From positions 558,001 through 622,000 of the forward strand of contig NZ_JAKGCS010000024.1 in assembly GCF_021556395.1 (NCBI RefSeq): a stretch of 64,000 nt of DNA, read 5' to 3'. The number at the start of each line of letters is the position of its first letter. Position 1 is the first letter of the stretch. Both the position numbers and the translations under genes were made by a program. The DNA is from Acuticoccus kalidii. Its GTDB lineage: Bacteria > Pseudomonadota > Alphaproteobacteria > Rhizobiales > Amorphaceae. Below the pieces are notes generated by a model. The model saw nothing but the letters and a program-made list of their open reading frames with translations. It was not told the origin of the DNA and did no database searches. Shown one piece after another: positions 9,305 through 24,733 of the stretch.

Positions 9305-10666
9305 GTGGCAATTATCAACGTAGAATCAGGTCAATCCATTCAGACGGCCATCAACAACGCGGTGGCTGGCGACACGATCCTGGTCGCACCGGGCGTCTAT
9401 AACGAAGACGTCGTCATCACTAAGTCGTTGACGCTGCTGTCCACCGGCGGTGCCGACGTCACGACGATCAACGGCCAGAACGGGGCGCTCGGCGCGATCG
9501 AGATCGATCCCAACGTCAACGACGTGACGATCGGCGACATCGGTCAGGGCTTCACGATCCTCGGGAACAACGGCAATGGCGCGATCGAGATGGGCGCCAT
9601 CTATCTCCAGGGCGACCACGACAACGTGACGATCCGTGGCAACGTGCTCGAGGCGCGCGGCGATTCAGCGATGACGTCGGAATATAGCGCGACGGTCACC
9701 AACCTCGTGATCGACAACAACGCCTTCACCGGCCAGACCTTCGAGGGCACCATCCCGGAGGGGGACGGCTTCAGCGGTCAGTTCAACGTAGGCAACAACG
9801 CGCCGCGTCAGCTCGTCGTGCTCGGCGCCGAAGGTCAGAATACGTCGAACGTCACGTTCACGAACAACGAGGTGTCCGGCACCGCTGGCGGCATCAATGC
9901 CAACGGCGATCCGCAAGGCAACACGCTCGTGACCATCGACGCGGAGAATTCGGTGATCTCCGGCAACACCTTCACCGGGTTCACCAATCGCTACGCCTAC
10001 GCCCTGCGCGCGCGTGAAGACAACACGGACGTCGTCAACAACACGTTCGACGCCGAAGCGAGCGGCAGCGAGAACACCGCGCGCATCTTGGTCGAGTCGG
10101 ACAATCCGGGCGAGGTCGCGTTCAATACCCAGATCGCCCCGGACGGGACCACGACCTCCGGCGGCTCCAGCGAAAACGACTTCATGATCGGCACGTTCGA
10201 TGACGAAGTCCTCGCCGGCGCCGGCGGCGACGACCGCTTGTTCGGTTTGTTCGGCGACGACACGCTCGACGGCGGCACCGGAAACGACCGCCTGTTCGGC
10301 GGCCTCGGTGACGACCGCATCGACGGCGGCGAAGGCCGCGATCACGCCTGGGGCGGGTTCGGTGACGACGTTTTCGCCTTTTCCGATGGCGACGGCAGGT
10401 TCATCGTCCACGACTTCCAGGGCGGCGCTCGCTTCGGCCCCTCCCCGACCCCGTCCTTTTCGGACCTGGTCTTCGGCCGCGATATGATCGAAGTGAATGT
10501 CGACGGTTTCGACAGCCTCGCCGACATCCTCGAGGTGGCCGAACAGCGCGGCCTCAACACCGTGCTGGACTTCGGCAATGGTGACAGCATCGTTCTGAAG
10601 AACACGCTCGTCTCGAGCCTCGACGAGGCCGACTTCTCGTTCCCGGTCGAGGACGTCTTCGTCTAA
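9305..10666 (+). CDS. Parallel beta-helix protein with RTX calcium-binding C-terminus
   Basis: A 453-residue protein beginning at GTG 9305 behind AAGGGAGGGACTGCC. Residues 1-270 form repeated short strands typical of right-handed beta-helix proteins (SIQTAINNAVAGDTILVAPGVYNEDV, then NVTIRGNVLEARG, NLVIDNNAFTG, NVTFTNNEVSG, SVISGNTFTG, TDVVNNTFDA), as in NosD or pectate-lyase-like folds. Residues of about 290-360 hold RTX nonapeptides of GGXGXDXLX type (GGDDRLFGLFGDDTLDGGTGNDRLFGGLGDDRIDGG). There is no N-terminal signal peptide, so type I secretion through a C-terminal signal is expected. No type I secretion genes are in the window. It converges on the giant autotransporter gene. It may be an adhesin or a polysaccharide-acting protein. 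Confidence 0.9.
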   Translation: MAIINVESGQSIQTAINNAVAGDTILVAPGVYNEDVVITKSLTLLSTGGADVTTINGQNGALGAIEIDPNVNDVTIGDIGQGFTILGNNGNGAIEMGAIYLQGDHDNVTIRGNVLEARGDSAMTSEYSATVTNLVIDNNAFTGQTFEGTIPEGDGFSGQFNVGNNAPRQLVVLGAEGQNTSNVTFTNNEVSGTAGGINANGDPQGNTLVTIDAENSVISGNTFTGFTNRYAYALRAREDNTDVVNNTFDAEASGSENTARILVESDNPGEVAFNTQIAPDGTTTSGGSSENDFMIGTFDDEVLAGAGGDDRLFGLFGDDTLDGGTGNDRLFGGLGDDRIDGGEGRDHAWGGFGDDVFAFSDGDGRFIVHDFQGGARFGPSPTPSFSDLVFGRDMIEVNVDGFDSLADILEVAEQRGLNTVLDFGNGDSIVLKNTLVSSLDEADFSFPVEDVFV

Positions 10667-10719
10667 GACCCTCGCGCGACGGGGCGAGCGGGCTTTTCAA
10701 CCCGTTCGCCACCAAAAAA

Positions 10720-10746
10720 GGCCGGCCAGGGTCACCCCGGCCGGCC
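10720..10746 (-). terminator. Rho-independent terminator for the autotransporter
   Basis: Read on the minus strand, a GC-rich hairpin (GGCCGGCC arms, inner GGG/CCC pairs, loop near 10732-10734) is followed by six T residues (complement of AAAAAA at 10714-10719). This is a classic intrinsic terminator for leftward transcription from the autotransporter gene. Confidence 0.75.
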
Positions 10747-10759
10747 CGTATCCGTCCCG

Positions 10760-10799: not shown

Positions 10800-13700
10800 T
10801 CAGAAGCGCTTCACGAAGCGCAGGCTGCCGGAGTGGTTGGAGTAATCGTCTCCGAACGCGCCGTCATAGTCGGCCCGCACGTCGAAACCGTTCGTGTTGG
10901 AGATCTGCACGCCCGCACCGATGCGGGCGAGAACGTCCGCAACGGGAAGCGTCGTCTTGAACGTCCCGGCGCTGGCCGGCGCGCTGTCGAGCTTCGCCTC
11001 GGTCTTCCATTCGTCCTCGGTCGACAGGCTGAGGCCCGCGGAGGCGAAAAACCGGGCGTCCCAACCCGCGGACGGCTTGAACCGGGCGCCGATCTCGACA
11101 GCCGGGGTCGCGACGACGGCGAACTGGTCCTGGCTCTCGACATCGAGATTATAGGCCCCGGCGCCCGTCTCCGTGTAGGCCCCCGAGTGGGCATAGAGCG
11201 CGTCGACATCGAGGAACGGGCGGACATAGGCGACATCGTTCGCGGCGGTGTAGGCAATCCGCCCACGCGCCCCGAGGGTGTAGAGGTCGCTCTCGCCGTG
11301 CGCCTTGCCGGCGAAGCCGGGCGTCACCACCGAGCGGTTGATGTCGTACCAGCCATAGCTGCCGGAAACCGCGCCGGAGACCTGGAACGCGCCGATCTCC
11401 CGCTTGACGGCGAGCGCGGCATAGACCGTGTCGCCATCCGACTTCGAGAAGCCGTCGGAGCTGTCATAGCGGGAGTTCTCGTAACCCGCGGCAAAGCCGA
11501 GGAACCAGTTCTCGCTGAACTCGGCCTGTCCACCCGCCGCAAAGCCCCAGAGCGTGCCGTCATAGCCCGGCGCGCCGCCCTGATCGATCACCGCACCGCC
11601 CATTTCGGCCCACGTGCAGGCGTCCTCCGTCACCATTGCGTCGTCTCCCTCGAAGGCGGGGCACCGCATCGCCTGGTCGAGGCGCCCGAGGGAGAGGACG
11701 GTCTGCGCCGCCGCGGCGGCTTGCGAGCCGCCCGGCGACAGCGAAGACAGAGCCTGCGCATAGGCCGACCCGCCATCGCCCATCGCGGACAGGCGGTTAT
11801 AGTCGGCGAGGATCCGGGCATACCGGGTGCCGTCCGCCGCGAACAGCGCGTCGAGGTGCCCGCCCACTCGCCTCTGATTGCGCGACAGAAGCGCGAACGC
11901 CTCGCTGAAGCGCGTCTCGGCGACCCGAAGCTCCACCCCGTCGCCGCGCGTGCGCGCCTCGAAGTCGACGGCGGGCGTGTCGACCGCCTCGATCGTCCCG
12001 GTGATCGCGCCGTCCGCGGTGATCACCGTCGCGACATTGCGGGCGATCATCGTGGCGTCGACCGCGATCGACCCGTCGAGTGAGGCATCGCCCGCCACGT
12101 GAAGGCGCGAGGCGCGGCCGCGCCGGAAATCGGCGACGGTCGCCGTCGTGCCGGTGCGCGTCTGGCTGAAGTCGCCCGTGATGGTGAGCCTTTCGGTCTC
12201 GTAAACGCCGCTGCCGATCAACATGCGGCCGGCATTGTTGACGTGCGCCTCGTAGAGGTTCGCGTCCCGCAACGTCTGGTCCGAGGTGTTGTTGACGGTG
12301 ATGGCGGTGTTGCCGTCGGCGTTCGAGCCGGTGACGTTGCCGGACAGTGTCCCGGCATTGTTCACGGTGAGCACCCCGCCCTCGGCGGTCGTCTCGTCGC
12401 TGATATAGCCGATCGCCGCACCGCCCGAACCGGCGACGATGGTCGATCCCTCCGCGATGTTGACGGCATTGTCGTGCCCGTCGGCGACGAAGATCGCATA
12501 ACCGTCGCTGCCGCTGCCGCCGGTAATGTCGGCATTGGCGTTGACCGTCACGATGCCGGCCGTGCTCGGTGCCTGGCTCTGCGCGAAGATGCCGACGGAG
12601 CCGGTTCCCGTGGTCGACACACCGCCATTGGCGGTGACCGTCACAGCGGCCGCCGTGCTACTCCCGCCGCCGCCGGTGTTGGCGCCGGCGAATGTGCCGG
12701 AGGAATCGCCGCCGACACCACCGCCGCCCCCGATCGACTGGGCGATGATCCCGTGGGCATATGTCCCCACCGTGCTCACCGGAATGTCCAACGTCACGGA
12801 CACCGCCGCGCCGTCGCCGCTCGCTCCGCTGGAGCGGTTGATGCGGCCGAGAGGACCGCTCCCCACATCACCGGCCACGCCGCCGCCGCCGCCGATGGAC
12901 TGGGCGATGATGCCGTGCGCGCCGTCATAATAGGTCCTCACGCTGCCGGAGGTGATGTCGAGCGTCACGGTGTTCGCGCTGCCGCCGCCGCCGCCCGATC
13001 CCCCGAGATTGACGCTGAGGATATTGTCGGCCGAGCCCACCCCGCCGATACCGCCGCCACCGCCGATCGATTGGGCGATGATGCCGTGCGCCCGCGCGCC
13101 AAAGGTTTTGACATTGGCACCGAAGCTCGCGTCGATGATGCCGCCGACGCCGCCTCCGCCGCCGGCGCCGCCGACCGCGACGTCGATGGAATAGTCGTCG
13201 TCACCGCCTGCGGACGTGTCGGACGTGCCTGTTCCGCCGATGCCGCCGCCTCCGCCGATCGACTGGAGCACCATGCCGTAGGCGTCATCGCCATAGGTGT
13301 AGGCGTTGATGAAGCCCTTGACGGTGACGGTGTCGCCGTCGCCGGAGCTCCCGCCATTGCCGCCATCGCTGCCGCCGAGGCTGAGGCTGCCGCTCGCCGA
13401 GTCGGAGCCGTCCCCGCCTTGACCGCCGCCCCCGCCGATCGACTGAAGCACGACCGCATGGGCCATGTAGCCGTTGGTCGTGACGGTCGCGCCGGGCGCG
13501 TTGTCGTCGAACGTCGCCGTCACGAGCCCGCCGCTGCCGCCGGAGCCACCCGAACCGCCGATGCTGAGATCGACCTGGCCGGTGTCGCCCGACGAGGAGG
13601 AGTAGGCGGTACCGCCGATACCACCACCGCCGCCGATCGACTGCGCGACGATACCGTCCGCCCAGTCGGCGGTCGTGGTGATGCTGCCCTGATAGTCGAC

Positions 13701-16061
13701 CGTGACGCTGCCCGCCTGGCCGCCCGTTCCCCCGGACCCGCCGACGGACGCCGTCAGCGTGACGTCGACGCCATCGTCATCATCGTCGTCATCATCGTCG
13801 TTGGTGATGGCGGCGACGCTATCGTCATCATCGCTCGCCGTGTCGCTCGTGGTGCCGACGGAACCGGCGAGGCCGCCGCCGCCGCCGATCGATTGGGCGA
13901 GGATGCCGTCGGCATCGATGCCCGCGGTGGTGATCGTCGCCCCGTCCATCGTGACGGTGACGTCCTTGCCGGCGCCGCCTTGGCCGCCCGATCCGCCGAG
14001 ACTGACGCTCACGGTGCCGCAATAGCTCTCGGATTCGGAGATCGCCGAGCCGTGGCATGTCGCTTGGCTGTCGTCCTCCGCGACTTCCTCCCCACCCGAC
14101 GATTGAACCTCGCCGCTCAAAGTGAGATTGCCGCCTTGGACGGTCCCACCGCCGCCGCCGACCGACTGCGCGATCACCCCGCGCGCGCCGTCGCCAGCGG
14201 TGCTGATCACGGCGTCCTCATAAAGGGTGACGTCGGCGCTGCCGCCGTCCGCGCCGAGTTCGCTCGCCTCGACATTCAGCGAGCCGACATTGAGCGTGAC
14301 GTTGAAATTGCCGTTGCCGGCGATCTGTTTCGTCGTGCTGTTCGGCACGCCCGAGTTGCCGCCGCCCCCGCCGATCGACTGAACCATGACGGCATTGGCG
14401 AACTGGCCGTTGGTCGTGATCGTCGTCGGCGTGGAATTGCCGGCGCTCGAGCCGACCGTCGCCGAGGCCGCCCCGCCCGAGCCGCCATCGCCGCCCGCCC
14501 CGCCGATCGAGGCGTTGATCGTCAATCCATATTGCTCGGTGGAATCGGGGAAGGTCGTCGTCGCGGTGGAGGCATCGCCGCCCGAGCCGCCGCCGCCACC
14601 GATCGATTGCACGAGGATGCCGTGCGAGCTTGCCCCGTTGGTGGTGATCGAGGAGGCGTCGGCCAGGGTGGCGGAGGCCGTGCCGCCGCTGCCGCCGTCG
14701 CCACCCGATCCGCCGAGCGCGAACTGCGCATTGAGGGTCAGCGTGAAATCGGGATCCTCGGGGTCGATCGGTATGCCCGTGGTGATCGCGCTCGCCGACG
14801 ACGAGCCGCCCGTTCCGCCGCCGCCACCGATCGACTGGACCAGCATGCCGATCGCATCGTGTGCGCCGTCGACGGTCGTTCCGGTCTCGATCGACGTCTG
14901 CGTGAGGTCGGCGGAGGCAGTGTTGCCCGCACCGCCGCCTTTGGCCATCCCGCCGAGCGCGAAGCCGACGGAGATAAGGCCGAAGGACCGGCTGCTGGCG
15001 TTGCCGCCAGAGCCGCCGCCGCCGCCGATCGACTGGACCTTCACGCCCGCCGCCTGACTGCCGCCGGTGGTGATCGTGCCGTTGTCGAGGGTGACGTTCG
15101 CCGTGCCGCCGTTCCCGCCGGCGCTCCCGGAGCCGCCGATGCTCATCTGCACGTAGTCGATGGCCGTCACCGTGGTGGCATCGCCGCCCGAGCCGCCGCC
15201 GCCGCCGACCGACTGGGCGAAGACGCCTGTCGCGCCCCGGCCAGCGGTCGCCACGTCGAAGGCCTGCGTGTTGGCGACGGTGACGTCACCGCCGACCCCG
15301 CCGCCGCCGGACTGCCCGCCGATCGCCGCGGTCGGAATGTTGAGGACGCCGCCGGAAAAGGCGTCGCCGCCATTGCCCCCGCCGCCGCCGACGGACTGGG
15401 CGAAAAGGCCGTAAGCGTAGCCGCCGCGCGTCTTGATCTTGCCGACGTCGGTGATGTCGACCGTGCCGCCGTCGCCGCCGCCGCCGCCATTTGTGCCGAG
15501 GGTGAAGACGCCGTAGCTGTTGCCGTCGCTCTTGCGCGGCTTGCCGGAGGCGCTGCCGCCGCCACCGCCGACGGACTGCGCATGGACGCCGATCGCCGCG
15601 TCCGCGTTCGTCGTCACGCTGTTGGTGTTGCCGACCGTAACCTTGCCGGGCGCCGTTCCCGAATCCGATCCGCCGGTCCCGCCGATCGACAGGATCGCGG
15701 TGGAGACGCCGGCCGCACCGCCCGCGCCGACGATCGATTGGGCGAGGATGCCGGCCGCGCCATAGCCGTTGGTGACGATCGTGCCGTCATTGGTGACCTC
15801 GACCGTGCCGCTCTCGCCGCCCGAGCCCCCGCTGCCGCCGAGCGCCACACCGACCGCGTTCGCGACGCCACCGGAGCCGCCGCCACCACCGATCGATTGG
15901 GCGAGGATCCCGTTGGCCTGGATGCCCTTCGTGTTGATCGACCCGCCGGAGGCGACCGTAACGCTGACATCGCTGCCGATGCCGCCCTTACCGCCCGCGC
16001 CGCTCGCGCCGCCGAAGAGACCGTTGAAGTCCCCGCCATCGCCACCGCCGCCGCCGACGGA
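10800..16061 (-). CDS. Autotransporter, 3' part: glycine-repeat passenger and beta-barrel (after amber codon)
   Basis: This is the 1,753-codon continuation, in the same frame, of the gene starting at 17717; it is cut off from its signal peptide by the TAG at 16062-16064. The passenger contains some 16 copies of a block ending in AQS(I/V)GGGGG spaced about 70-100 residues apart, a run of nine Asp codons near 13780-13800, and a segment with two Cys (MRCPAFEGDD, then EDACTWAEMGG). The last 270 residues are an autotransporter beta-barrel (WFLGFAAGYENSRY, then YAALAVKREIGAFQVSG) ending in Phe, as outer-membrane barrels do. Without readthrough or an internal start (for example GTG 15848) this part would not be exported. 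No internal start has a signal peptide. Confidence 0.8.
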   Translation of the reverse strand, partial: SVGGGGGDGGDFNGLFGGASGAGGKGGIGSDVSVTVASGGSINTKGIQANGILAQSIGGGGGSGGVANAVGVALGGSGGSGGESGTVEVTNDGTIVTNGYGAAGILAQSIVGAGGAAGVSTAILSIGGTGGSDSGTAPGKVTVGNTNSVTTNADAAIGVHAQSVGGGGGSASGKPRKSDGNSYGVFTLGTNGGGGGDGGTVDITDVGKIKTRGGYAYGLFAQSVGGGGGNGGDAFSGGVLNIPTAAIGGQSGGGGVGGDVTVANTQAFDVATAGRGATGVFAQSVGGGGGSGGDATTVTAIDYVQMSIGGSGSAGGNGGTANVTLDNGTITTGGSQAAGVKVQSIGGGGGSGGNASSRSFGLISVGFALGGMAKGGGAGNTASADLTQTSIETGTTVDGAHDAIGMLVQSIGGGGGTGGSSSASAITTGIPIDPEDPDFTLTLNAQFALGGSGGDGGSGGTASATLADASSITTNGASSHGILVQSIGGGGGSGGDASTATTTFPDSTEQYGLTINASIGGAGGDGGSGGAASATVGSSAGNSTPTTITTNGQFANAVMVQSIGGGGGNSGVPNSTTKQIAGNGNFNVTLNVGSLNVEASELGADGGSADVTLYEDAVISTAGDGARGVIAQSVGGGGGTVQGGNLTLSGEVQSSGGEEVAEDDSQATCHGSAISESESYCGTVSVSLGGSGGQGGAGKDVTVTMDGATITTAGIDADGILAQSIGGGGGLAGSVGTTSDTASDDDDSVAAITNDDDDDDDDDGVDVTLTASVGGSGGTGGQAGSVTVDYQGSITTTADWADGIVAQSIGGGGGIGGTAYSSSSGDTGQVDLSIGGSGGSGGSGGLVTATFDDNAPGATVTTNGYMAHAVVLQSIGGGGGQGGDGSDSASGSLSLGGSDGGNGGSSGDGDTVTVKGFINAYTYGDDAYGMVLQSIGGGGGIGGTGTSDTSAGGDDDYSIDVAVGGAGGGGGVGGIIDASFGANVKTFGARAHGIIAQSIGGGGGIGGVGSADNILSVNLGGSGGGGGSANTVTLDITSGSVRTYYDGAHGIIAQSIGGGGGVAGDVGSGPLGRINRSSGASGDGAAVSVTLDIPVSTVGTYAHGIIAQSIGGGGGVGGDSSGTFAGANTGGGGSSTAAAVTVTANGGVSTTGTGSVGIFAQSQAPSTAGIVTVNANADITGGSGSDGYAIFVADGHDNAVNIAEGSTIVAGSGGAAIGYISDETTAEGGVLTVNNAGTLSGNVTGSNADGNTAITVNNTSDQTLRDANLYEAHVNNAGRMLIGSGVYETERLTITGDFSQTRTGTTATVADFRRGRASRLHVAGDASLDGSIAVDATMIARNVATVITADGAITGTIEAVDTPAVDFEARTRGDGVELRVAETRFSEAFALLSRNQRRVGGHLDALFAADGTRYARILADYNRLSAMGDGGSAYAQALSSLSPGGSQAAAAAQTVLSLGRLDQAMRCPAFEGDDAMVTEDACTWAEMGGAVIDQGGAPGYDGTLWGFAAGGQAEFSENWFLGFAAGYENSRYDSSDGFSKSDGDTVYAALAVKREIGAFQVSGAVSGSYGWYDINRSVVTPGFAGKAHGESDLYTLGARGRIAYTAANDVAYVRPFLDVDALYAHSGAYTETGAGAYNLDVESQDQFAVVATPAVEIGARFKPSAGWDARFFASAGLSLSTEDEWKTEAKLDSAPASAGTFKTTLPVADVLARIGAGVQISNTNGFDVRADYDGAFGDDYSNHSGSLRFVKRF

Positions 16062-16064
16062 CTA
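16062..16064 (-). other. In-frame amber codon interrupting the autotransporter
   Basis: TAG at codon 552 of a reading frame otherwise open from 17717 to 10800. The surrounding protein reads HGILA-stop-SVGGGGG, while the next repeat reads NGILAQSIGGGGG. Most repeat copies carry Gln at this point, and CAG to TAG is one C-to-T change. Confidence 0.9.
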
Positions 16065-17717
16065 GGCGAGGATGCCGTGCGCGAAGTCGAGCTTGCTGCC
16101 GATCCGGTTCGTGCCGTCGGTCGTGATCACGCCGCTCGTCAGCGTCACGTCGACCGTGCCGCCATTGCCGCCCCCACCGGCCGATCCTGGGCTTCCGAAG
16201 ACGACGTTGCCGGCACCACCATCGCCGCCGAACTGGCCGATCGACTGGGCGACCACGCCGCGCCCGGAATCGTTGCCGGCCGAGGAGGCCTCCGCCTTGA
16301 TCGACTGGTCGGCCGTAATGTCGAGCGTGACCGAAACGTCACCCGCATTGCCACCGTTGCCGCCACGGGAATCGTTTGCGTTCGACAATCCGGCCCCGCC
16401 GGTGCCCCCTTGGCTGACCGCGAGGATCCCGTCGACGGCCGTGCCGGCGGCGAGCACCGCGATCCCGTCGCTCGAGAACGTGCTCGCGGGCATACTGACG
16501 GTGACGGAGCCGCCCGCCCCGCCGTTCCCGCCAGGCTCGCCATGCTGGCCCACGCCGCCGGTGCCGCCGGTCGAGATCGCCACGATCGTGCCGCTCTGAT
16601 CGGTCGATGCGATCGTGCCGGACTGTGTGGCGCGAGCCGAACCGAAGACGTTCACGTCGACGGCGCCACCGACGCCCCCGGCCCCACCGGGTGCGAAGTT
16701 GCTGTCGACGCCGACATCATAGGAATAGCCGCCGTCCCCGCCGGTGCTTTCGGCGTAGACGCCGCGGAACGCCCCGTCGGTCGCCTGCCCGAAGGCGGTC
16801 ACCGAATAGTTTGCCGTAAGGGTCACGGAGCCGCCCGCGCCCCCGGTGCTGCTGCCGCCGCCGCCTTGCGTCTCACCGTTGGAGGAGTTGTATGCGTTGG
16901 GGCCGCGCCCGCCTGCGGACTGCCCCCAGACACCGTAGACACTCTGGGCCGTCAAAGGATTGTCGGCGCTTCCGGTCACGATATTGCCGACGTCGACCTG
17001 GACCGTCCCGCCCGCGCCACCATTCCCGCCGAGCGGCATGAAGTTCGCGCCTTCATTGCCGCGGCCGCCCGTCCCGCCGATGCTGGAGACCCGCAACGCG
17101 GCGATCGTGCCGGGGCCCGTCACCCCGGAAATGCTGGTCAGGATCGTGTTGCTGCTCGCCTCGCCATTATAAGTAACGTTGCCGCCGGCCCCACCGGCGC
17201 CGCCGTTGCTCTTATTGTTCGAGTTGTCGTCGTTCCCGTTGCCGCCGGTCGAGATGAAGCGCGCGGCCTCCATCTCATAGGCGGTGCTGGCATATTCGTT
17301 GATCGTGTAGGTCGCACTGCTCGGCGGGGTGATCGTCAGGTCGCCACCCTGTCCGCCCGCCGACGGACCATTCGATGATCCGTTGCCGCCGACGGTGTTG
17401 ACCCATGTGCCGTAGAGATAGTTGCTCGGGTTGCCGTCACCGGGCAACGAGACGTCGATGTCGCTGTTGTAGACGAAGGTCCCGCCGCCCCCGTTACCAC
17501 CCGGCGTGTCCCCGCTGCCGGCCGATCCGTTGGACGTGTACAGAAACGGCTTGTCCGTGGTGGTGCCATTATCAAAAATGCAAGTATCGCCGCTGGGCTC
17601 GCAGCCATAACTGTTCTGTGCCAGGGCCATTTGCGGAAAGAATAACGCGCAGGACGACAGAACCGTCGACACCATGAGCGTCTGTTGAAACGGAATGGCA
17701 CGCGTGGAAATTTTCAT
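16062..17717 (-). CDS. Autotransporter, 5' part: signal peptide and start of passenger
   Basis: The ATG at 17717 starts a long signal peptide (MKISTRAIPFQQTLMVSTVLSSCALFFPQMALAQ, cleavage after ALA near residue 33). An earlier in-frame start at 17807 would bury it. The 551 codons up to the amber stop hold glycine-, serine- and asparagine-rich strands (GGNGGAGGTVQVDVG, STGGTGGVGQHGEPGGNGGAGG), the start of a beta-helical passenger. With the 3' part the preprotein would have 2,305 residues, a typical size for giant autotransporter adhesins. As read, the product is a secreted fragment without a barrel. The gene appears disrupted, unless the amber is an assembly or base-calling error or is suppressed. 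Confidence 0.8.
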   Translation of the reverse strand: MKISTRAIPFQQTLMVSTVLSSCALFFPQMALAQNSYGCEPSGDTCIFDNGTTTDKPFLYTSNGSAGSGDTPGGNGGGGTFVYNSDIDVSLPGDGNPSNYLYGTWVNTVGGNGSSNGPSAGGQGGDLTITPPSSATYTINEYASTAYEMEAARFISTGGNGNDDNSNNKSNGGAGGAGGNVTYNGEASSNTILTSISGVTGPGTIAALRVSSIGGTGGRGNEGANFMPLGGNGGAGGTVQVDVGNIVTGSADNPLTAQSVYGVWGQSAGGRGPNAYNSSNGETQGGGGSSTGGAGGSVTLTANYSVTAFGQATDGAFRGVYAESTGGDGGYSYDVGVDSNFAPGGAGGVGGAVDVNVFGSARATQSGTIASTDQSGTIVAISTGGTGGVGQHGEPGGNGGAGGSVTVSMPASTFSSDGIAVLAAGTAVDGILAVSQGGTGGAGLSNANDSRGGNGGNAGDVSVTLDITADQSIKAEASSAGNDSGRGVVAQSIGQFGGDGGAGNVVFGSPGSAGGGGNGGTVDVTLTSGVITTDGTNRIGSKLDFAHGILA

Positions 17718-17994: not shown

Positions 17995-19137
17995 TCAGCC
18001 CGCGAGCCGAAGGATCGTCGCCTCATAGCCGTGCGCCGCATCCACGACGTCGGCGACCGCGACGCGCTCCTCGTCGGTGTGGAACTGCGCCGGATCGCCG
18101 GGGCCCCATTTCACCGCCTCGATCCCATTGACGATGAGATAGCCGGCATCGAGCGAGCCCGGCGAATAGAAGGTGTCGCGTTCGGCGAGCCCCGCCTGCG
18201 CCAGCGCGGACTGGATCGACGACACCAGCGGGCCGGCTTCGTCGACGATCGAGCCGTACATGAAGGGCCCGCGCTCCACCTCGATCGCGAGCGGCGCATC
18301 GAGCGTGAACGCCTCTCGCAGGCCAGCAAGGACCGTCTCCGGCTCCTCTCCCGGCATCAGGCGGCGATCGAACATCATCCGCGCCTCGGACTGGACGGTG
18401 TGGGTGGCGTTGGGCGCGGTGCGGATCGCGGTGCACGTCAGCGTCGCGGGGCCGAGCGCATCGTGCGAGGGAAGGTCCGCGCCGATCGCCTCGGCGCGCT
18501 CCAAAAGGATGCGCACGCCCTTCGTCACGTCGACGCCCGCCCATGGCGTGCTGCTGTGGCTCGATTTGCCGTGGATCGTCACGTCGACATCGAGCCGGCC
18601 GCGATTGCCGAGCGCGATCTTGCCACCCGTTCCGATCGCGAGGATCCCGAAGCGCGGCGTCGCGCCGAGCGCGTCGAGCGCCACCGCGACGGCGTCGTGC
18701 CGGCCGGTCTCGCCGGCGGTGAGGAGCGCGAAACCGACGCGGCGCTTGAGCCGCCCGCCCGTTGCGGCGCTGATGAAGGCGGCGAGCGTCGCGGCGAGCG
18801 CCGATTTCTGCTCGCTCACCCCGCGCCCACGCACCGCGCCGCCGTCATGCTCGCCCGCGAACGGGTCACGCATCCGGTTCGCCGGATGCGTCATGGCGTA
18901 ACCGAGGAGGAGAAGCGGCATCTCGGTCCCCGCCGGTCCTGCTTCCGCGATGAGGTTGCCGAAGCTGTCGATGCGGGTCGCAATGCCCGCCTCTTCGAGG
19001 AGCGGGCGCACGGCCTCGGTCACGAAGGAGAGCACGGCCGGATCGGCCTCCATCATGTCCGTCTGCTCGCTCGGATGGCGCACGAAACGCTGCATCCAGG
19101 TGACGAGGCGGTCTTCTGTGATGGGCAGATGGCTCAT
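17995..19137 (-). CDS. M20-family (ArgE/DapE-like) amidohydrolase with altered metal site
   Basis: A 380-residue cytoplasmic hydrolase. Its ATG overlaps the stop of the ligase gene by four bases (19134-19137). The M20 fold is visible (DPFAGEHDG, GRGVSEQKSALAA, GRLDVDVTIHGKSSHSSTPWAGVD, FHTDEERVAV). Usual zinc ligands are changed: the HxD of LLGHxD reads LLGYAMTHP, the Asp of GRGxxDxK is Glu, the Glu-Glu pair reads GET, and the third ligand position (EPT in relatives) is GT. The dimer-domain HSSTP and the last His are kept. It may use a different metal arrangement or be a divergent subfamily. As last gene of the acyl-CoA ligase operon it could release an acid from an amide conjugate. Confidence 0.82.
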   Translation of the reverse strand: MSHLPITEDRLVTWMQRFVRHPSEQTDMMEADPAVLSFVTEAVRPLLEEAGIATRIDSFGNLIAEAGPAGTEMPLLLLGYAMTHPANRMRDPFAGEHDGGAVRGRGVSEQKSALAATLAAFISAATGGRLKRRVGFALLTAGETGRHDAVAVALDALGATPRFGILAIGTGGKIALGNRGRLDVDVTIHGKSSHSSTPWAGVDVTKGVRILLERAEAIGADLPSHDALGPATLTCTAIRTAPNATHTVQSEARMMFDRRLMPGEEPETVLAGLREAFTLDAPLAIEVERGPFMYGSIVDEAGPLVSSIQSALAQAGLAERDTFYSPGSLDAGYLIVNGIEAVKWGPGDPAQFHTDEERVAVADVVDAAHGYEATILRLAG

Positions 19138-20765
19138 GGACGGCTCCTGCGTTCGGTGCGCGGGGACAGCGTTCCGAAAGTTTTCGACAAGATGTCGAGC
19201 GCGGCGCGCCGGTCGGGCTTGCCGGCGTCCGTGCGCGGCAACCCGTCGACGACGAGGACGGCGCGGGGAATGGCGAAGGTCGGACCGTTCGTGGCGCAGA
19301 ACTCCTGCACCTCGACCGGCGCGAGGGATATGCCGGGCCGCGGCGCGACGAGCGCCGCCGGCGCGAACGACTTCGTGGTGTGCGGCAGGGGAACGACGAT
19401 GACATCGTTCACCGAAGACAGCTTCAGGATGAGATTTTCGACATCCTTCGGATAGAGATTTTCGCCCCCGCAGGAAAACATGTCGTCGCTGCGGCCGACG
19501 AAATAGAGAAAGCCGTCACCATCCTTGCGGAAGATGTCGCCGGTCTTCAGCCATCCGTCCTGGAGCCGTTCGGCGGTGAGGTCCGGCCGGCCGGCATAGG
19601 CGGTGAGCACATAGGGGCTGCGGATCCACAATTCGCCGAAGGTCGCGCTTTCGCCGCCGGCCTCGTCCACCAGCTTGCCCTCATATTCCGGGGCGATGAC
19701 GCCGACGCTGCCCTTCGGCGTCGGCCGTCCGTCCCCATGCGCGCGCGTCGGCCCACCCCCTTCGGTGAGGCCATAGCTCTCCTTGATCGCGACACCCGGA
19801 AAGGCGGCGGCAAGGCGCTCGCTCAACTCCTCCGGGACGGCGGAGGAGCCCATCGAAAGGGTTTCGAGGGCGGAGAAATCGAGGGTCTCGACTAGATCCG
19901 TCTCGCGCAAGATGTCGGCGAACATCGCCGGGACGCCGCCGCAGATCGTGACGCGATGGCGCGCGAGCGCCTCGAGATAAAGGCGCGGCTTGAAGGCGCG
20001 CATGATGACGACGGACGCGCCGCCTCGAAGCATCGGCTTGATCGTCCCGCGCATCGCATTCTTGTGGAACATCGGGGCGGCGACGATGCCGCGCTCCTCC
20101 GCGCGGCGCGGCCAATATTCCTCGCTATGCTCGATCCCCCAGAGCATCCCGCCATGGGTGAGGACGATGCCCTTCGGCACCCCTGTGGAGCCGGCCGTAT
20201 ACGGCTGGAACGCCTGATCCTCGAAGCGCATCGTCGCCACATGATCGGACGGCGCGGCCGCCTCGAAGAGCGCGCGCCATGCCCGCCAACGGCCTTTCCC
20301 CGAGCCGGAGAGATCGATGAGCGTTCCCGCCTCCATCTCGCCCGCGAGAGCGTCGAGCGCCGGCGTTTCGGCCAGATCGGCGAGGAGACCTGTGGCGCCG
20401 CAATCCTTGAGGACGAAGCGCAGCACATCGAGCGGAAGGCGCGGATTGAGGAAGGCCGGGATCGCGCCGAGCCGCATCAAAGCGAGGAAGATCACGAGGA
20501 AGGTGTGCGAGTTCGGCAGCGCCATCGCAAGGCGCGTGCCGCGCGTCACGCCGAGACCCTCGAAGAGGCCGACCGCCTTACGGATCGCCGCTTCGAGATC
20601 GTCATAGGTGAGGACGATCTCGCCCGCGCCCGAGATGTCGATGATGGCGACCCGGTCGCCCGGAACCGGCCGCGCCGCGACGAAGGCGCCGAGATTGCAG
20701 GCCGGGTGAAGGTCGGGGATCCGCGCCAAAGTCGGCCGGTCGATGGGGCTCGATGCGGCCGCCAT
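19134..20765 (-). CDS. AMP-dependent acyl-CoA synthetase/ligase
   Basis: A 543-residue class I adenylate-forming enzyme that activates a carboxylic acid with ATP and joins it to CoA. Core motifs are in order: A3 YTAGSTGVPKG (about 190), A4 around APMFHKNA, A5 SYGLTEGGGPTRAH (about 335), A7 GWLKTGDIFRKDGDGFLYFVGR, A8 DDMFSCGGENLYPKDVE, and the A10 Lys in PRTDAGKPDRR. The A8 sequence resembles that of aryl- and medium-chain acid ligases. It starts one base after the stop of the oxidoreductase and overlaps the M20 gene. With the thioesterase and oxidoreductase in the same operon it points to CoA-dependent breakdown of an imported acid, perhaps aromatic. Confidence 0.9.
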   Translation of the reverse strand: MAAASSPIDRPTLARIPDLHPACNLGAFVAARPVPGDRVAIIDISGAGEIVLTYDDLEAAIRKAVGLFEGLGVTRGTRLAMALPNSHTFLVIFLALMRLGAIPAFLNPRLPLDVLRFVLKDCGATGLLADLAETPALDALAGEMEAGTLIDLSGSGKGRWRAWRALFEAAAPSDHVATMRFEDQAFQPYTAGSTGVPKGIVLTHGGMLWGIEHSEEYWPRRAEERGIVAAPMFHKNAMRGTIKPMLRGGASVVIMRAFKPRLYLEALARHRVTICGGVPAMFADILRETDLVETLDFSALETLSMGSSAVPEELSERLAAAFPGVAIKESYGLTEGGGPTRAHGDGRPTPKGSVGVIAPEYEGKLVDEAGGESATFGELWIRSPYVLTAYAGRPDLTAERLQDGWLKTGDIFRKDGDGFLYFVGRSDDMFSCGGENLYPKDVENLILKLSSVNDVIVVPLPHTTKSFAPAALVAPRPGISLAPVEVQEFCATNGPTFAIPRAVLVVDGLPRTDAGKPDRRAALDILSKTFGTLSPRTERRSRP

Positions 20766-23731: not shown

Positions 23732-24733
23732 TCAGTCGAGGTTGGCGATGAGGTCGGCCGGATCGTAGGCCGTGTCGATCAGGCCCGCGGAGGCGAACGT
23801 CTCGTAAGTGCTTTGCCAGCCCTCCACGCTCTGCGCACCGAACGGCACATCACCCGATGCGGCGCGCGTGCGCGGGATGATCTCCGTCCACTTCGCCGTT
23901 TCTTTCTGAATTTCGGTCTCGGGAACGTGCTTTTTGAGGATTTCGATCGCCTCGTCGACATTCTCGATCGTGTATTCCCACGACCTCAACGTCGCCTCGG
24001 TGAAACGCTTGGCAAGGTCGGGATTGTCCGCGACGACCGCTTCGTTCGCGAAGAGGACCTGGCCGTAGGAATTCACGCCATAGTCGCCGAGATCGATGAC
24101 GTTGAGGTCGAAACCGTCCTCTTGGAGCGCGATCACCTCGTTGGTGGCGAGGGTGATCGTGGCGTCGATCGTGCCGGCGATGAGGACCGGCGAGGACGAC
24201 GTCGTGCCGAGATCGGTCAGCTCGATCTGCGAGGCGTCGAGGCCCGCCGCGTCGACGAGCGCGCCCCAGAAGGCGAACACGGTGCTGCGCGAGGAGACGC
24301 CGACCGTCTTGCCATAGAGGTCTTCCGGCGTCTCGATCCCGCTGTCCTTCAGCGAAATCATGACATTGGGGCTCTGCTGCAGGAGCACGGCCGTCGCGAC
24401 CACCGGAACCCCGCGGCTGCGCCCGATCGCGACGGCATCGGCGACCGCGACGCCGAACATGTCGTTGCCCGACCCGACGAGCTTCACCGTGTCGTTGGAG
24501 CCGATCCCGGGCGTGATGGTGATATCGATCCCCGCGTCGGCGTAGAAGCCTTTCTCGAGGCCGACATAATACGGCGCATGTTCGGCATTCGCGACGTAGT
24601 TTAGGCGCAATGTCGCAGGTTCGAGCGCCCCATCCTGCGCGAATGCATGTGATGATGCCCCGGCGATCAACACCAAGGCCGCACCAACACTAGAGAATAC
24701 CGAAAATCCTGGCGAACGAACCAACGACCCCAT
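23732..24733 (-). CDS. ABC transporter substrate-binding protein, NMT1/THI5-like
   Basis: A 333-residue periplasmic protein with a signal peptide (about residues 1-32, VGAALVLIAGASSHAFAQ). The mature part starts LRLNYVANAEHAPYYVGLEKGFYADAGIDITITPG, the signature of the NMT1/THI5-like binding proteins for pyrimidine precursors, aromatic acids or riboflavin parts, followed by SNDTVKLVGSGNDMFGVAVADAVAIGRSRGVPVVATAV. It is the first importer gene after a gap of about 140 bases behind the thioesterase; that gap holds a palindrome AATTCGAATT at 24800-24809. Ligand unknown, probably the acid or amide processed by the downstream ligase and hydrolase. Confidence 0.9.
   Translation of the reverse strand: MGSLVRSPGFSVFSSVGAALVLIAGASSHAFAQDGALEPATLRLNYVANAEHAPYYVGLEKGFYADAGIDITITPGIGSNDTVKLVGSGNDMFGVAVADAVAIGRSRGVPVVATAVLLQQSPNVMISLKDSGIETPEDLYGKTVGVSSRSTVFAFWGALVDAAGLDASQIELTDLGTTSSSPVLIAGTIDATITLATNEVIALQEDGFDLNVIDLGDYGVNSYGQVLFANEAVVADNPDLAKRFTEATLRSWEYTIENVDEAIEILKKHVPETEIQKETAKWTEIIPRTRAASGDVPFGAQSVEGWQSTYETFASAGLIDTAYDPADLIANLD

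Follow-up and report, generated by a model that had tools for sequence, protein, structure and literature searches.

The minus strand of the window, i.e. the 64,000 nucleotide stretch of the genome of the marine alphaproteobacterium Acuticoccus kalidii analysed here, carries a giant autotransporter gene whose reading frame is interrupted once (Table 1). Re-translation of 17717-10800 agrees with the original prediction that the 2,305 codons are open but for a TAG at 16064-16062, which is the only internal stop, the terminal stop being extra. The gene is followed by a terminator-like hairpin and converges with a neighbour on the plus strand (9305-10666), which ends beside it. The product of this neighbour has 453 residues and contains RTX calcium-binding repeats (PF00353); its N-terminal end gives a weak NosD-like (beta-helix) match. 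Upstream, on the minus strand (17995-20765), an M20 peptidase gene and a gene identified by eye as AMP-binding-like overlap by 4 bases. Since the congener relatives of the M20 protein are only about 30 % identical, this may be an accessory region.

Table 1. Features of the interrupted autotransporter locus (window coordinates)
Feature	Position	Strand	Evidence
Interrupted autotransporter gene, 2,305-codon frame	10800..17717	-	Translation; congener relatives of 2,292-2,469 open codons
In-frame amber TAG (codon 552), in place of the Gln of strict motif copy 1	16062..16064	-	Sequence, translation, alignment
Pre-stop fragment, 551 codons, first part of the glycine-rich passenger, without barrel	16065..17717	-	
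Post-amber part, 1,753 codons, remaining passenger and barrel	10803..16061	-	
Strict motif region, 17 copies spaced about 50-110 residues, beta-solenoid-like	12714..16076	-	Motif count, structure model
PF03797 autotransporter beta-domain	10863..11612	-	G000:C23:568863-569612; E = 2e-38
Terminator-like hairpin, 13 pairs then a T run, just 3' of the gene	10719..10747	-	Consensus scan

The predicted protein is a type Va autotransporter of the passenger and barrel kind. Like other type Va proteins with a PF03797 domain, it has an N-terminal signal-like segment, a long repetitive passenger and a C-terminal barrel ending in Phe; unlike them, its passenger is glycine-rich and built on xQS(I/V)GGGGG, neither part of the protein matches a Pfam or NCBIfam passenger family, and the gene is interrupted. 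The barrel was missed by Pfam scans of the whole protein and was found on scanning the C-terminal piece, where residues 97-346 of a 366 aa fragment match PF03797 (E = 2.2e-38; profile positions 2-255 of 255). The C-terminus reads RFVKRF, with the aromatic Phe last, and the congener proteins likewise end in KRF, which bears out the intact barrel with terminal Phe that had been proposed. At the N-terminus, a hydrophobic stretch followed by an ALA-Q site was seen by eye and, judged in this way, the 551-codon fragment probably starts with a Sec signal peptide; Pfam found no domain in this fragment. Passenger and barrel are continuous in the congeners and here are not in one continuous frame, owing to the TAG at codon 552, and the gene is therefore classed as broken rather than as a working autotransporter gene.

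The amber codon falls into the first of the 17 strict xQSxGGGGG motifs. Position 2 of the motif is Gln in the 16 remaining copies (12 CAG and 4 CAA codons), so the original consensus AQS(I/V)GGGGG was right in expecting Gln at the stop position and too narrow only in its first residue, which can be A, V or L, i.e. the passenger repeat takes the form (A/V/L)QS(I/V)GGGGG. Codons 590-890 were modelled with AlphaFold as periodic beta strands, including the GILAQSI segment, at a modest mean pLDDT of 63; the model thus suggests, with modest confidence, repeats arranged as in a beta-solenoid. Comparison of the predicted passenger model with the PDB gave no significant match (best E = 3).

Relatives of the gene were found in three congeners, one of them Acuticoccus yangtzensis JL1095. 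Each consists of one uninterrupted frame of 2,292-2,469 codons, and identity amounts to 50-66 % over both parts, i.e. 50-56 % before and 55-66 % after the stop. Over the C-terminal 600 residues, the protein is 54-63 % identical to these relatives vs 29-34 % to three giant paralogues in its own genome (frames of 2,270, 2,298 and 2,756 codons). A scan of named genomes gave no match with the N-terminal part, while the barrel alignment matched Acuticoccus yangtzensis. The flanking genes, compared over about 2-8 kb to either side, show no neighbourhood conserved in the congeners; orthology is therefore read from the gene sequences alone. The disabling stop is absent from these orthologues, and the alignment places Gln at the amber site in all three, so that one nonsense substitution is sufficient, as had been suggested.

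On mononucleotide composition, the probability of a 1,753-codon open run is P ~ 6e-16. This value is too favourable and overstates the case for the post-amber frame, because GC-rich codon usage keeps 1,759 codons of the antisense frame open as well. The conservation in the congeners is better proof of a real gene than the length of the open frame. The antisense frame in question (12099-17378, plus strand) runs along most of the autotransporter gene, its codons aligned with those of the sense frame; most probably it arises from the GC-rich codon usage and is not a gene. As proof that the stop is recent, stop-free length was likewise considered and set aside, being weak alone when the antisense frame is equally open. 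Recency was judged instead from counts of lineage-specific changes and of stop gains.

Lineage-specific changes were counted as aligned residues at which one of four sequences alone differs. Before the stop, 19 residues are unique to the interrupted gene, compared with 28 and 18 in the relatives from congeners G002 and G007, respectively; after the stop, the corresponding counts are 62, 88 and 79. The dN/dS of the post-stop part is 0.39 against G002 and 0.30 against G007, and 0.39 for the intact pair G002-G007; these values are rough, the synonymous sites being well diverged (dS about 0.7-1). Given the actual codons, 293 single-base changes could have created another stop after the amber and none occurred, which therefore limits the age of the stop (95 % bound) to less than about 0.03-0.04 neutral substitutions per site. 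With no excess of changes in its own lineage, a dN/dS like that of intact pairs and no second stop, the lack of downstream decay stands as first described. No relaxation is seen in the part behind the stop, and by these measures the gene was under normal constraint until very recently.

Such a lack of decay is equally expected from a sequencing error or from efficient read-through. The first of these, i.e. a sequencing or assembly error, a minority allele or a culture mutation fixed in the stock, would leave the gene intact in nature, and it would explain why decay is completely lacking and why the relatives are uninterrupted; moreover, repetitive GC-rich sequence is harder to assemble. However, outside its own locus, the 900-base stretch surrounding the stop finds nothing but short matches in the assembly, at 66-86 % identity, and a collapse of near-identical repeats is therefore unlikely. 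Nonsense pseudogenes are, in general, commoner than single substitution errors in a consensus sequence. Error or a minority allele is second to a recent nonsense mutation, with something like one chance in six, while functional read-through is unlikely.

If the amber were suppressed or read as an amino acid, full-length protein would be made, and both the intact frame and the constraint behind the stop would follow; there is no other support for this. An amber-suppressor tRNA, for which a search had been proposed, was looked for among the 51 tRNA genes of the genome with anticodons as named by ARAGORN, and none has the anticodon CUA that reads UAG, with the caveat that the assembly is 94.9 % complete. 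One or more tRNA genes are probably missing from it, because tRNA-Thr(GGU) is also absent from the 51. In the window, ARAGORN called a tRNA-Thr(GGU) at 24117-24188 on the plus strand, with the anticodon at an odd position (27) and no Rfam support; long ORFs beside an ABC transporter gene overlap this locus, and the call is probably false. Release factor RF1 (prfA) is present, over the cut-off, and TAG is the regular terminator of an intact paralogue on contig 14, where it follows the terminal Phe immediately. In-frame stops were found neither in 150 ABC-transporter domains (ABC_tran), sampled in place of a genome-wide census, nor in six autotransporter barrels. Since the congeners have no stop at the site, it is not a conserved recoding site either.

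Together, the tRNA, RF1, ABC-domain and paralogue data speak against recoding across the genome and against a dedicated suppressor, and suppression is thus very improbable. Of the three options originally left open, a very recent mutation and an error are retained and suppression is not supported. Low natural read-through is possible, as for any amber. A leaky amber, through near-cognate insertion of Gln or through a suppressor encoded in the unassembled 5 %, might yield a little full-length surface protein. We hold this to be as improbable as suppression; if true, the gene would be a surface variant switched on and off by a stop.

The explanation that fits best is that a single, very recent substitution would have turned a Gln codon into a stop and inactivated the autotransporter gene; we give it a probability of roughly 77 %. 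Translation would end after 551 codons, and the truncated product would be a glycine-rich fragment bearing the putative signal peptide and lacking the C-terminal barrel. Because the barrel is absent, the mechanism of type Va secretion predicts that the fragment would fail to reach the cell surface, and it would probably be broken down. Rescue by a downstream restart seems unlikely because the downstream frame has, as judged by eye, no signal peptide. The fragment might conceivably be a functional new protein and the stop an adaptive truncation, considering that the start and the apparent signal peptide are kept. However, it contains no domain of its own, the cut lies inside a repeat motif, and the short, 551-residue form occurs in no congener examined, so that this idea is the least credible of all. 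Most probably, the interrupted gene is an ordinary pseudogene and a very young one. It resembles other bacterial nonsense pseudogenes, among them the 'pseudo-pseudogenes' translated at a low level that Feng et al. (2022) reportedly described, in that one stop inactivates a gene that is intact in all other respects, here known from the sequence only.

The loss would be tolerable, because intact paralogues remain in the cell. Besides the interrupted gene, which is one of about six autotransporter genes, the genome encodes autotransporter barrels at five loci, all of them in open frames and including those of the three giant paralogues. Other members of the family are broken as well: in congener G005, the passenger (1,819 codons) and the barrel of one related copy lie in different frames, the split being near the barrel (L116, about 6500), and another member consists of remnants in several frames (L115, 4945-6480). 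The genes of the monomeric autotransporters BmaA, BmaB and BmaC of Brucella, likened here by description, likewise appear to be functional in certain species and pseudogenes in others (PMC7697752). BmaC is also giant; its passenger has pectin-lyase-like and PATR domains (PMC7697752), unlike that of the interrupted gene, in which none was detected. Considering the broken copies in G005 and the probable pseudogenes of some Brucella species, the loss of single family members is ordinary.

Nothing new about translation would follow from this locus unless full-length protein were found, and it calls for caution in that a conserved open frame behind a stop is no evidence of recoding. For the family, the locus would clearly capture a giant autotransporter gene just as it is being lost.
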